A stretch of 64,000 bases of DNA from Gemmatimonadota bacterium (GTDB lineage: Bacteria; Gemmatimonadota; Gemmatimonadetes; Gemmatimonadales; GWC2-71-9). Where the stretch lies: the NCBI GenBank assembly GCA_009692185.1, contig SHZT01000001.1:62001-126000 (forward strand). Reading direction: 5' to 3'. The stretch's first letter is position 1. The number at the start of each line of letters is the position of its first letter. Made by a program: the position numbers and the translations under genes. Below, piece after piece: positions 12,396 through 17,140 of this stretch. The notes below the pieces were generated by a model. The model was not told the origin of the DNA. It made no database searches and was given only the letters and a program-made list of their open reading frames with translations.

Positions 12396-12423
12396 AAGAT
12401 AACAACGGTCGTTTAGTGCGCAA
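12396..12423 (-). promoter_or_regulatory. Candidate extended -10 promoter for the GME-like operon
   Basis: Read on the minus strand, TATCTT (12401-12396) is preceded by TGT, giving an extended -10 element. A weak -35 (TTGCGC, 12423-12418) lies 16 bp upstream. Transcription would start about 30 nt before the ATG at 12357, leaving the GGGGAG ribosome-binding site in the leader. The same TGTTATCTT string occurs upstream of the gene at 14798. The consensus of this organism is unknown. Confidence 0.4.
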
Positions 12424-13252
12424 CCGATGAGCGGGGAGCCTTGTCCGGCCCCCGGCGAATGCCCAGCAACTGCTTGAGAACCAGTCCAACGAACACCGGA
12501 TTGTTGTAGGCGTAACGGCGCCACAGACGGCGCGGCTCCTGGATCAGCCGATAGGCCCACTCGAGCCCCGCCCGCTGCGCCCACGACGGGGCATACCGCA
12601 GGCGTCCGGTGTGGTAGTCGAACGCTGCGCCAACCGACACCAGGACCTTGACCCGAAGGGCGTCACAAATGGCGCCGATCCAGCGCTCCTGTTTCGGCGT
12701 GGATAGACCCACCCAGACGATGTCGGCGCGAGACCGGTTGATGGTGTCGGCGATCGACTTCATCTCTTCAGGACTCAATGCCCGAAACGGCGGGCAGTAG
12801 GTTCCGGCCACCTCGACGCCTGGGTACCGCGACGAGAGCCGCTTTCCCAGCTCCTCGGCCACACCCGGCTCGCCGCCGTAAAAGAAATGTCGAGTCCCCC
12901 GCGGGCTCTTCTGGCAAATGCGGAGCATCAGCTCCGGCCCGAACATCCGCTCCATGGACCGCTTGCCGAGGATTCGACCTACCCAGACGAGCGGCACGCC
13001 GTCGGGGGCAACCAGGTCCGCCTGGTTCAGGATCGTGGCGAACGAGGCATCCCGGGCGGCGGTGACCACGCCGTGCACGCTGGTGGCGCATGCATACCGG
13101 GCGCGTCCCACGTGCTCCCCGCCTGCCCACCCTGCGATGCGCGCTGCGGCTGAATCCAGCGAACAGCACGACACGCCGATTCCCAGGATTTCGACCTTCG
13201 GAACGACATCGAAATCCGGCTCGTCGCGCCGGCTGGCGGGTTCCGTTGTCAT
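12413..13252 (-). CDS. WecG/TagA/CpsF-family glycosyltransferase (GT26)
   Basis: 279 residues from the ATG at 13252; upstream in-frame sequence lies in the neighbouring gene. ILGIGVSCCSLDSA, NQADLVAPDGVPLVWVGR, FFYGGEPGVAEELG, WVGLSTPKQERWIG and SVGAAFDYHTGRLRYAP are the conserved blocks of the GT26 family. These enzymes add the second sugar (ManNAc- or ManNAcA-type, or glucose) to the undecaprenyl-linked first sugar. It directly follows the initiating phosphoglycosyltransferase gene, which fits the first and second steps of one repeat unit. Confidence 0.9.
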   Translation of the reverse strand: MTTEPASRRDEPDFDVVPKVEILGIGVSCCSLDSAAARIAGWAGGEHVGRARYACATSVHGVVTAARDASFATILNQADLVAPDGVPLVWVGRILGKRSMERMFGPELMLRICQKSPRGTRHFFYGGEPGVAEELGKRLSSRYPGVEVAGTYCPPFRALSPEEMKSIADTINRSRADIVWVGLSTPKQERWIGAICDALRVKVLVSVGAAFDYHTGRLRYAPSWAQRAGLEWAYRLIQEPRRLWRRYAYNNPVFVGLVLKQLLGIRRGPDKAPRSSVAH

Positions 13253-13274
13253 CGGGAGAACGGTGCTCGGCAGG

Positions 13275-14798
13275 CTAGAACGCCCCGGCGCGGCCGAACA
13301 CGGCGGGAATGGTCCGGGCCATGATCTTGAGATCGAGCCAGAGCGACCACTGCTCGATGTATTCCCGGTCGAGACGCACGACCTCCTCGAAGTCCACAAC
13401 ATCACTTCGCCCGCTCACCTGCCAGAGGCCGGTAATGCCCGGCTTCGCGCCGAGCCGGCTGAAGTGGTGATCGCGGTAGGCGTCGAGGTCGGACTCGAAG
13501 AACGGCCTCGGACCGACGATGGACATGTCCCCGATCAGCACATTCCACAACTGGGGCAGCTCGTCCAGGCTGAACGGCCGCAGGAACGCGCCAACCCGGG
13601 TGACGCGCGGATCGTTGGGAATCTTGAAGAGCCGTGGGTCTCCGGTGTGGTTGAGGTGCGCCATGGACGCCTTTTCCTCGTCGGCGCCGTCGCGCATCGT
13701 GCGGAACTTGTAGAATCGGAACACCCGCCCGCCGAGCCCCACCCGTTCCTGCGAGAAAAACGCCGGACCCGGACTGTCCAGGCGAATCGCCAGCGCGATG
13801 AGGCCGAAGAACGGCGCGAGCAGGATCAGGCCGATGGCGGCGCCCAGCACGTCTATTACCTGCTTCACGAACAGCTGCTGGTCCTGCAGGGACGGCACGG
13901 CGAGCTCGATGAACGGAAGCCCGCGGTGCCACACAACCCCAGGGCGCATCTTGGCCATGCCGTCGTACCGGGGAACGATGAGAATACGGCAGCCGGCGGC
14001 CGTCGAGGCCTCGACAACCGAGTGGAATACTTCATCGGGAAGGTGACCGGACACCACGACGGTGTCGGCGGCCAACCGGTGCAAGGTCGCCCAGTACTCC
14101 ATTTCGTAGGAGCTTCCGTTGCCGGAGTTTCCGTTGCCGGCATGGGAGCCGTTCACCCAGCCGAGCGATACCACGCCGCCACTGCCCATGAGCTTGGAGG
14201 ACACGAACTGCGCCGCGGGATCGTCCGGATTCCCCACAAACAACACGCGTTCGACGCGCTGCGGCACCGGCCAGGCCCGCGACACGAGAAATTCGACTGT
14301 CAGCCGGCCGGCCACGATTGGAACCCACAGGAAGCCGACGGTGGCGACGAATTGAAGGGCCACTCGGCTGCCCCCGATGACCCAGGCGTTCTGCCACACG
14401 CACAAGGCCGTGCCGAACGCCACGCCCGCAAGCAACGCGCCCACGTCCCGGCGGGCACCGGCGCGGCCGTACGTGCCCGCAAATGCGAGCCCCAGCACCA
14501 TGGCAATCGGGAACTGCCACCCGGCGTGATACTGGGCCGGGAAGAGAGTCCCCGTGAGCCGGGTAATGAACGAATCCTGGACAGCGCGATTCAGGGCGAA
14601 GTCCACAACCGCCCGAAACAGGAAGAACAGACCGAGGTCGCAGGCCAGCAATGCGACGACCCGGGCAGTCGAGAACAGCGGATGCCGGCGGGCGACTTCG
14701 GGAGCGCGACGGTGGAGCGAGACCCGTGCGGAGTCCGAGCGGCGCGGCGCGACCGTCTGTTGGGACGGGCGCGAATGGCTGGCAGCTGTAATCGTCAC
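13275..14798 (-). CDS. Polyprenyl glycosylphosphotransferase (WbaP/CpsE type)
   Basis: 507 residues from a GTG. The N-terminal half has several membrane segments followed by a nucleotide-binding-like domain (VLFVGNPDDPAAQ). The C-terminal catalytic domain has one membrane segment and the bacterial sugar transferase blocks RVGLGGRVFRFYKFRTM, FSLDELPQLWNVL, MSIVGPRP and KPGITGLWQVSGR. It transfers a hexose-1-phosphate from UDP-sugar to undecaprenyl phosphate at the inner membrane. A short Asn-Gly-Ser-rich repeat (GNGNSGNGSS) near residue 225 lies between the domains. This is one of two initiating enzymes in the window. Confidence 0.92.
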   Translation of the reverse strand: MTITAASHSRPSQQTVAPRRSDSARVSLHRRAPEVARRHPLFSTARVVALLACDLGLFFLFRAVVDFALNRAVQDSFITRLTGTLFPAQYHAGWQFPIAMVLGLAFAGTYGRAGARRDVGALLAGVAFGTALCVWQNAWVIGGSRVALQFVATVGFLWVPIVAGRLTVEFLVSRAWPVPQRVERVLFVGNPDDPAAQFVSSKLMGSGGVVSLGWVNGSHAGNGNSGNGSSYEMEYWATLHRLAADTVVVSGHLPDEVFHSVVEASTAAGCRILIVPRYDGMAKMRPGVVWHRGLPFIELAVPSLQDQQLFVKQVIDVLGAAIGLILLAPFFGLIALAIRLDSPGPAFFSQERVGLGGRVFRFYKFRTMRDGADEEKASMAHLNHTGDPRLFKIPNDPRVTRVGAFLRPFSLDELPQLWNVLIGDMSIVGPRPFFESDLDAYRDHHFSRLGAKPGITGLWQVSGRSDVVDFEEVVRLDREYIEQWSLWLDLKIMARTIPAVFGRAGAF

Positions 14799-14844
14799 GT
14801 CAGGCGAGCCTTGTCACGGGCAAATCAGCTTTCTGAAGAGAAGC

Positions 14845-14873
14845 AAAATGCACCCGATCTCTCGTCGCGTCAA
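14845..14873 (-). promoter_or_regulatory. Candidate sigma70-like promoter for the WbaP-type gene
   Basis: On the minus strand TTGACG (14873-14868) and CATTTT (14850-14845) are 17 bp apart. The -35 is good and the -10 is poor. An alternative start is the TGT-TATCTT element at 14941-14936. Either would drive the genes from 14798 to 12413. Confidence 0.35.
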
Positions 14874-15022
14874 TTGGTTAGCAAACTCCGGATGTGACCG
14901 GGGCGATCGCCGCTCTCCCACCTTCCCCAGGGGACAAGATAACACCGTAACTACCTGCCACACCGTGGTTTGCGTCACAAGGTGTGGGTATCGAGCCCCA
15001 CTACCCTGCGCGCGGATATAAG

Positions 15023-15040
15023 ACCGGGTGAAGACCCGGT
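15023..15040 (-). terminator. Terminator-like hairpin after the WbpL-like gene
   Basis: Read on the minus strand, ACCGGGT and ACCCGGT form a 7-bp GC-rich stem with a CTTC loop. It starts 3 nt after the TAA stop at 15043-15045. The following sequence (CTTATAT) is only weakly T-rich, so termination could be partial. It separates the WbpV/WbpL pair from the next transcript. Confidence 0.55.
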
Positions 15041-15042
15041 TG

Positions 15043-16086
15043 TTAACGGTCTGGAAGGAGCAACGTTGAGCCTGACGTTGGTGAGAAACGTCGTTCCATG
15101 AAAACATACGCGACGCCAACACCGACCACACCTACCGCCAGGGCCCACGGAAGGAACCCCCGCCAGCGCCACGCCGCGGCGGCGAGCAGAGAGAGCACCA
15201 GGTTTGTGCCAAGAACCGCCCCATCTACCTTCCCGTGCGACCACCCGGACTGCACCAGCCGCTGATACAGGTGGCTCCGATGCGCGGTGTACCACGGTTC
15301 GCCGCGCATCATGCGGCGCGCCACCACGATCGTGGCGTCGGCCACGAAGGCGCCGAGCAGGATCACCCAAATCAGTGCGGGCGCCCCCTCTTTCTCCCCC
15401 GCGAACGCGAGCCCGGCCAGCATGAAGCCAAGGAGGCCGGACCCCGCATCGCCCATGAAAATCCGGGCCGGGGGGCGGTTCCACACCAGGAAGCCGGCGC
15501 TTGCCGCCGCGATCACTAGGGCCACCAGGGCCAGGCCGTTCGCCCCGCTCAACAGGAGTAGTGCCCCGCCCACCGAGGCGACGCACACCGCCTCGACTCC
15601 CGCGATGCCGTCAATGCCGTCCATGAAGTTGTACAGGTTGGTGGACCACACGATGGACAGGACGGCGAGCGCGCTGCCGAGGGGGCCGAGCGGCAGGCGC
15701 ATGACGCCGGCATCGACCGAGTGGACCCCGCCGAGCAAGGCTACCAGCCAGGACGCAGCCGCGACCTGGGCCACGAGGCGGAGTCCCGCGGACAGTCCCA
15801 CGCGGTCATCAATCCATCCCACGACGGCGACCGCAAGGCCTCCGACACCCAGGCCCCACGCCGGGCCGCGATCGAGCCAGCCCAGGAGGTAGGCCAAGAC
15901 GACCGCGCCAATCGCCGGGATGGCGATTCCCCAGCCCCCGCCTAGCGGCGTCGGGACGATGTGGGCACTCCGCTCGTTTGGCGTATCGAGGATCCCACGA
16001 CGCAGCGCGTAGCGGCGCGCCGCGCCCGTCAGGGCCCACCCCGCGAGGAACGCGCCCCCGACAAGGCCGATGAGCTGGGCGGTCAG
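15043..16086 (-). CDS. WbpL/WecA-like polyprenyl-phosphate sugar-1-P transferase, CTG start
   Basis: 347 residues if translation starts at the CTG (16086-16084) whose last bases overlap the preceding stop (CTGA). No ATG, GTG or TTG exists in this frame between an upstream stop at 16113-16111 and a TTG at 15897. The conserved LRRGILDTPNERSAH and PTPLGGGWGIA blocks lie upstream of that TTG, so a start there would truncate the protein. NLYNFMDGIDGIAG, FMGDAGSGLLGF and HRSHLYQRL are catalytic blocks of the MraY/WecA superfamily. About 10 membrane helices are expected. With the WbpV-like neighbour it probably transfers QuiNAc- or FucNAc-1-phosphate to undecaprenyl phosphate. Confidence 0.88.
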   Translation of the reverse strand: MTAQLIGLVGGAFLAGWALTGAARRYALRRGILDTPNERSAHIVPTPLGGGWGIAIPAIGAVVLAYLLGWLDRGPAWGLGVGGLAVAVVGWIDDRVGLSAGLRLVAQVAAASWLVALLGGVHSVDAGVMRLPLGPLGSALAVLSIVWSTNLYNFMDGIDGIAGVEAVCVASVGGALLLLSGANGLALVALVIAAASAGFLVWNRPPARIFMGDAGSGLLGFMLAGLAFAGEKEGAPALIWVILLGAFVADATIVVARRMMRGEPWYTAHRSHLYQRLVQSGWSHGKVDGAVLGTNLVLSLLAAAAWRWRGFLPWALAVGVVGVGVAYVFMERRFSPTSGSTLLLPDR

Positions 16087-17036
16087 ATGGCCACCGCCCG
16101 GCGGAGTCCCTCATCCACGGTGAACGGCGGGCTCCACCCCAGTACGCGTCGCGCCTTGGACGTGTCTACCTCAAGACTCTCGCAGAGTCGCTGGACCATG
16201 TCCCGCCGTCCCAGGAGCGCGGCGCCCGCCTTGAGCAGCGCGACCGGTACGGGTACAAGGCGCGCCTGCACGCCGAGCGCGGCCGCGGTCCGCCGAAGCA
16301 GACCAGTCGTGGACAGGGATTCACCGTCGCCAGCGACAAAGACCTGGTTCGCTGCTGCGGGATGCATCGCGCATGTCAAGATGAGATCCACCAGGTTGTC
16401 GAGTCCGATCAGCGTCCGACGATTGTCCGTGATGGCGCCCAACGGGAGCGGCACGCCGCGCGCGAGCCAGCGCACCATGGAAAGAAAGTTGGCCTTTACA
16501 CCGGGGCCGTAGACGAGTGGCGGACGAATCACGACGACCTCCATTCCAGTCGATGATGCCACGGCCATCAACCCCGCCTCCGCCTCCGCTTTCGACCGGC
16601 TGTACGGATCCGCGGGAGCCGGGAGATCGGCCTCGGTGAACGCCCTCCCCGCGGTGGTGCCCTCCCCGTTGACCTTGATCGAGCTCAGGAAGATGAACCG
16701 GCGCACGCCGGCGCGCGCCGCTTGGCGGGCCAGGGCTTCGGTTCCCGCCGTGTTCGCCCGGCGGAAAGCGCCCAGCGGGTCAGCGGCCTGGTCCTGCATG
16801 ACGTGGACCCGCGCCGCCAGGTGCACGACCGTTCCCACCCCGTCGAACGCCCCCGACCAGTCCGTATCGCCCGCCAAATCGCCGACCCTGCGGTACTCGA
16901 TGCCGCTTGCCTCCCCGGTGGGCGCGTTCCGGGACGTGCCGCGCACCTGGAACCGGCCTTCCCGCCCCAGGCGATGCACCAGGGCGGCGCCTACGAACCC
17001 CCTGGCGCCGGTGACCAAGACTGTGGCGGCGGTCAC
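16083..17036 (-). CDS. WbpV-like UDP-4-keto-6-deoxy-HexNAc reductase (SDR)
   Basis: 317 residues from a GTG at 17036 (VTAATVLVTGARGFVG); an ATG at 17138 would add a 34-residue extension without family resemblance. VVHLAARVHVMQD, FLSSIKVNGEGT, DPYSRSKAEAE (Tyr-x3-Lys), IRPPLVYGPGVKANF and TLIGLDNLVDLI are typical of the WbpV group, which reduces the 4-keto sugar made by a WbpM/CapD enzyme to UDP-QuiNAc or UDP-FucNAc. The matching WbpM-type dehydratase is at 38389. The stop overlaps the CTG of the WbpL-like gene, the usual partner. Confidence 0.87.
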   Translation of the reverse strand: MTAATVLVTGARGFVGAALVHRLGREGRFQVRGTSRNAPTGEASGIEYRRVGDLAGDTDWSGAFDGVGTVVHLAARVHVMQDQAADPLGAFRRANTAGTEALARQAARAGVRRFIFLSSIKVNGEGTTAGRAFTEADLPAPADPYSRSKAEAEAGLMAVASSTGMEVVVIRPPLVYGPGVKANFLSMVRWLARGVPLPLGAITDNRRTLIGLDNLVDLILTCAMHPAAANQVFVAGDGESLSTTGLLRRTAAALGVQARLVPVPVALLKAGAALLGRRDMVQRLCESLEVDTSKARRVLGWSPPFTVDEGLRRAVAI

Positions 17037-17140
17037 GGTTAACGGGCCGTTCGGCGCACGGTCCGGGAGTGCCCCGAAGCACCTTGCGCCACTCTCAAAA
17101 CGGTCGTATATGTCGGTGTTAATGTCACATAGCAGCATTC

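Follow-up and report, generated by a model that had tools for sequence, protein, structure and literature searches.

The WbpL-like gene of the window, the 64,000-nucleotide stretch of Gemmatimonadota DNA analysed here, very probably starts at a CTG on the minus strand (16086-16084), through termination-reinitiation at a CUGA overlap with the end of the upstream SDR gene. From sequence comparison, CTG seems to function here as a start codon, one that standard gene finders overlook. On the comparative evidence, CTG starts are real in this lineage and conserved for infC and pth, and these family-conserved starts are more interesting than the single wbpL gene. The features of the locus are:

15043..16086, minus strand: predicted WbpL/WecA-like polyprenyl-phosphate sugar-1-phosphate transferase, 347 aa from the CTG (PF00953, E 1.1e-34; homologues in relatives)
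16084..16086, minus strand: putative CTG start of the WbpL-like gene (the one codon that could serve at the homologous position; codon-usage onset at 16086)
16083..16086, minus strand: CTGA, a 4-nt gene overlap of the putative CTG start and the SDR-gene TGA stop (from the sequence; ATGA or GTGA in relatives)
16092..16098, minus strand: Shine-Dalgarno-like GGCGGTG, 6/7 bases of GGAGGTG (duplex energy against an assumed anti-SD, -10.6)
16083..17138, minus strand: upstream SDR (WbpV-like) gene, given as the maximal ORF, so that its own start may lie further in (PF01370, E 2.7e-32; ORF list)
13275..14798, minus strand: second initiating sugar transferase, downstream (PF02397, E 4e-65; TIGR03025 above cut-off)
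12413..13405, minus strand: WecG/TagA-type glycosyltransferase, downstream (PF03808, E 5.7e-60)

The transferase frame opens after an in-frame TGA (16113-16111) and ends at 15043, and the first ATG, GTG or TTG within it is the TTG at 15897-15895. Upstream of that TTG lie the NERSAH block (15978-15961) and the PTPLGGG block (15954-15934), and further upstream the CTG shares two bases with the TGA of the SDR gene (16085-16083). The preliminary description had claimed that the frame lacks a canonical start between the TGA and the TTG, that the start-less stretch nevertheless encodes the two family-typical blocks, and that the CTG forming CTGA with the WbpV-like stop is the only suitable codon. 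All its coordinates were correct, and the observation was confirmed. A run of 63 codons without ATG, GTG or TTG is by itself unremarkable in a GC-rich frame. The run in the WbpL-like gene goes beyond chance because the stretch is coding by homology, because codon usage sets in at 16086, and because relatives carry ATG or GTG at the same overlap.

The transferase gave a full match to PF00953 (120.2 bits against a cut-off of 27), fell below the WecA equivalog cut-off (88 against 326 bits), and is a distant relation of the solved MraY structures. It is accordingly described, by profile, as a WbpL/WecA-like (PF00953) member of the PNPT family, with sugar-1-phosphate transfer to undecaprenyl phosphate as its predicted activity. 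The upstream gene is an SDR/epimerase by PF01370, and the gene families present identify the region as a probable surface polysaccharide locus. This one locus (13275-16086 of the window) holds, side by side, initiating sugar-1-phosphate transferases of two kinds, PF00953 and PF02397. The presence of a second kind of initiating transferase next to wbpL raises the possibility that the start codon has been lost, i.e., that the CTG yields little or no protein and that the gene is entering decay while the PF02397 transferase takes over; that sole reliance on CTG for wbpL was seen only in this species points the same way. Decay sits poorly, however, with a reading frame that is unbroken over 347 codons, has normal codon usage and retains the full PF00953 match, and with the use of CTG as the conserved start of essential genes in the family. 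Further, the two transferases are members of different families and not necessarily redundant. We consider loss of the start codon unlikely.

Initiation at the CTG is favored by two features of the DNA around it. A codon-usage model trained on the genome, and so independent of homology, placed the coding onset exactly at 16086. The Shine-Dalgarno-like site is stronger than those of 97% of the genome's canonical overlap starts, its duplex energy of -10.6 being attained by 3.2% of those starts and by 1.4% of random codons; the anti-SD used in this calculation was assumed because no 16S 3' end could be located in the assembly. Two other weak codons were weighed as starts: an ATC five codons downstream of the CTG, ATC being a listed table-11 start, and the TTG at 15897, a canonical start codon that would give a truncated protein. 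Their SD energies are -0.7 (ATC) and -4.1 (TTG) against -10.6 for the CTG, neither is at the homologous start site, and use of the TTG would delete the conserved N-terminal blocks, so that a start at either codon is very improbable.

The homologous start site was then read in relatives with the same SDR-transferase gene order, by taking the codon in the 4-nt overlap in the transferase frame. In this comparison of homologue N-termini, which the preliminary description had proposed, the codon overlapping the SDR stop was ATG in 27 and GTG in 7 of 34 relatives. Loci from the same family carry either ATGA (L005, L006, L009 and L115) or GTGA (L112, L114 and L116). The overlap start of relatives typically lies 34-37 codons before the NERS block, and the CTG lies 36 codons before it. 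A conserved canonical start at another place, which the preliminary description had named as evidence against the CTG, was rejected, as the conserved start site falls exactly at the CTG overlap. In sum, no ATG, GTG or TTG is able to serve the transferase, and a CTG occupies the conserved start position. Because the 34 relatives carry ATG or GTG there, the CTG is the positional homologue of an ancestral ATG or GTG start, reached by a first-base change. CTG was also found at the overlap in L087, L095, L109 and L122, each with an ATG or GTG within a few codons. No relative with wbpL depends on CTG alone, which counts against the CTG reading: among the relatives compared, conservation of CTG at the wbpL start in independent genomes was not found, and this genome, represented by one assembly, is the only one in which CTG is the sole start. 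On this comparison, the wbpL CTG appears to be a species-level case.

The preliminary description had offered two interpretations, reinitiation on the CTG and ribosomal frameshifting that would fuse reductase and transferase. Programmed -1 frameshifting at the end of the SDR gene has in its favor that, within the SDR gene, the transferase frame has no stop in the 8 codons preceding the CTG. No heptamer before the SDR stop permits both tRNAs to re-pair in the -1 frame, however, relatives have ordinary starts at the overlap, and no fused SDR-transferase homologue was found among the relatives' loci compared. With slippery heptamer and fused homologues both absent, the frameshift fusion was rejected as barely credible. 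Reinitiation on the CTG fared better, being supported by the positional homology, the strong SD-like site and the CTG starts of the family.

The CTG starts of the family include that of infC, which encodes IF3. In this genome (L298, G000 C18, locus base 1234, plus strand) a CTG is the only start available to infC between the in-frame stop and conserved sequence. In the comparison loci L274-L303, the infC start was CTG in 17/17 family genomes checked, 11 of which lack a canonical codon within the 22 codons shown, and two other families have ATT or ATC near that site. The peptidyl-tRNA hydrolase gene, pth, likewise starts with CTG in this genome (G000 C12:4042, plus strand). Across loci L214-L243 and L304-L333, the homologous pth start was CTG in 22 of 23 family genomes and TTG in the remaining one; the CTG often follows an in-frame stop by 1-3 codons, and four of these genomes have a canonical codon four codons downstream. 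In the neighbouring family f3 the pth site holds CTG in 3/5 and CTC in 2/5 genomes, and one f10 genome has CTG. In most of the remaining genomes the site is occupied by ATG, GTG or TTG, the exceptions being three f8 and two f7 genomes with a GTG within three codons. The RF1 gene, prfA, has a CTG start with AAGGAG upstream (G000 C12:32557, minus strand). The prfA start is GTG in a same-genus relative and ATG or GTG in most relatives, and four genomes from two other families again show CTG at the homologous position (L267, L271, L272 and L273). Translated from the CTG, the pth, prfA, infC and chromate-transporter products match their profiles from residues 3-10 onward. Within the limited literature searched, no relevant paper on CTG starts in Gemmatimonadota was found.

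Since they are found in many independent assemblies, CTG starts as such cannot be attributed to sequencing error. For wbpL there is a single assembly, a 30-contig draft, and base 16086 might really be A or G; one base change is enough to restore the ATGA or GTGA of relatives. Such an error, whether of sequencing or assembly, would have had to hit precisely a start codon, in a genome whose infC and pth CTG starts recur in independent assemblies, and next to an SD-like site of the unusual strength expected for compensation. Given the single assembly, we assign a base error at wbpL a small probability.

We infer initiation on the CTG, SDR-transferase coupling and a low expression level. The ribosome that finishes the SDR protein at the overlapping UGA would be held by the GGCGGUG just upstream and would reinitiate on the CUG, where the ordinary initiator tRNA would insert formyl-methionine. 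The ancestral AUG or GUG probably became CUG by a first-base change in a family already using CUG for infC and pth. Against this reading, CUG initiates only very weakly in E. coli. An altered initiator tRNA as the cause of CUG tolerance was rejected, because only one sequence matches the initiator anticodon-arm pattern exactly, a normal CAU tRNA carrying three G-C pairs. When IF3 was aligned with that of E. coli and of two other families, no obvious family-specific change was seen, and neither comparison revealed a molecular cause of the tolerance.

To look more widely, 744 kb of the 2.63-Mb genome, with 658 genes, was sampled. Genes with a coding onset at or beside a CTG and no canonical alternative were pth, prfA and a PIN-domain gene. 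Further CTGA overlaps were observed at G000 C12:25905 (minus strand), C14:80788 (plus strand) and C12:55472 (minus strand), in the PIN-domain gene, a membrane-protein gene and a chromate-transporter gene. The PIN-domain gene and the membrane-protein gene lack a nearby canonical start; the profile match of the former begins at residue 4, and the latter has no Pfam match. The nearest canonical codon of the chromate-transporter gene lies 12 codons in. The gene of a DUF402 protein is a further candidate for a CTG start. A CTG exactly at the coding onset, without a canonical start, was found for 14/1309 genes in three family genomes and for 2/604 genes in two genomes outside the family. One outside genome, G130, also has a gene whose onset is at CTG. 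These counts suggest an excess of CTG starts over the genome as a whole, one that is not significant (p = 0.11); a cruder window test of the excess was too noisy for use. A GH38 glycosidase gene (G000 C3:279472, minus strand) lacks a canonical start near its conserved N-terminus, and an ATA there overlaps the upstream TAG as ATAG. The ligA gene of a same-family genome (L210-L213 region, G019 C1:362397, plus strand) has an apparent CTG start after a strong SD-like GGGAAGGG, with the LigA profile match starting at residue 8. At G000 C14:69300-70395, a formate-tetrahydrofolate ligase remnant is seemingly joined in frame to FdhD-like sequence and continues in another frame, which seems to be an indel or a pseudogene.

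A gene finder restricted to ATG, GTG and TTG would set the transferase start 63 codons downstream of the CTG, and it would likewise err on the starts of infC, pth and prfA, essential genes of the lineage. The family-wide CTG of infC and pth amounts to a natural experiment on how IF3 and initiator tRNA handle CUG, and makes the question of CUG as a selected bacterial start codon directly testable. A broader proposal, which we hold with somewhat more doubt than confidence, is that this family employs CUG as a fourth start codon, regular and selected. A CUG start would be common to infC, pth and, in some species, prfA, whose synthesis may thereby follow IF3 activity; ordinary operon genes, wbpL among them, would be recruited by single base changes; and annotation pipelines would truncate or miss all of them.

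Coupled reinitiation at ATGA and GTGA gene overlaps is established (Huber et al. 2019, PMC6728339). The wbpL case has the same 4-nt stop-start overlap of co-directed genes, at the same site as the ATGA and GTGA of relatives, and differs in that the start is CTG and the coupling a predicted one. The AUU start of E. coli infC, with its autocontrol, is classical (Butler et al. 1987, as cited in PMC9845219). There as here the start is a rare non-AUG codon, and the rare start of infC in this family is CTG, in contrast to the ATT or ATC of other families; wbpL, unlike infC, encodes no translation factor. CUG accounts for a quoted 0.024% of annotated genes (PMC9845219), and it forms initiation complexes of lower stability (PMC11497404). 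In bacteria, fixation of a switch to CUG is a rare event (2 of 61,358 AUG and 1 of 5,080 GUG starts), and weak starts are associated with a stronger SD (Belinky et al. 2017, PMC5622118). The first-base change from AUG or GUG to CUG is the same in those switches as in the present case, whereas here the CTG of infC and pth is conserved across the whole family. Finally, compared with other WbpL/WecA-like PF00953 transferases, the protein has the same full-length match and the same conserved N-terminal blocks, and its gene adjoins an SDR gene as in Pseudomonas relatives; what sets it apart is the CTG start, in place of ATG or GTG.
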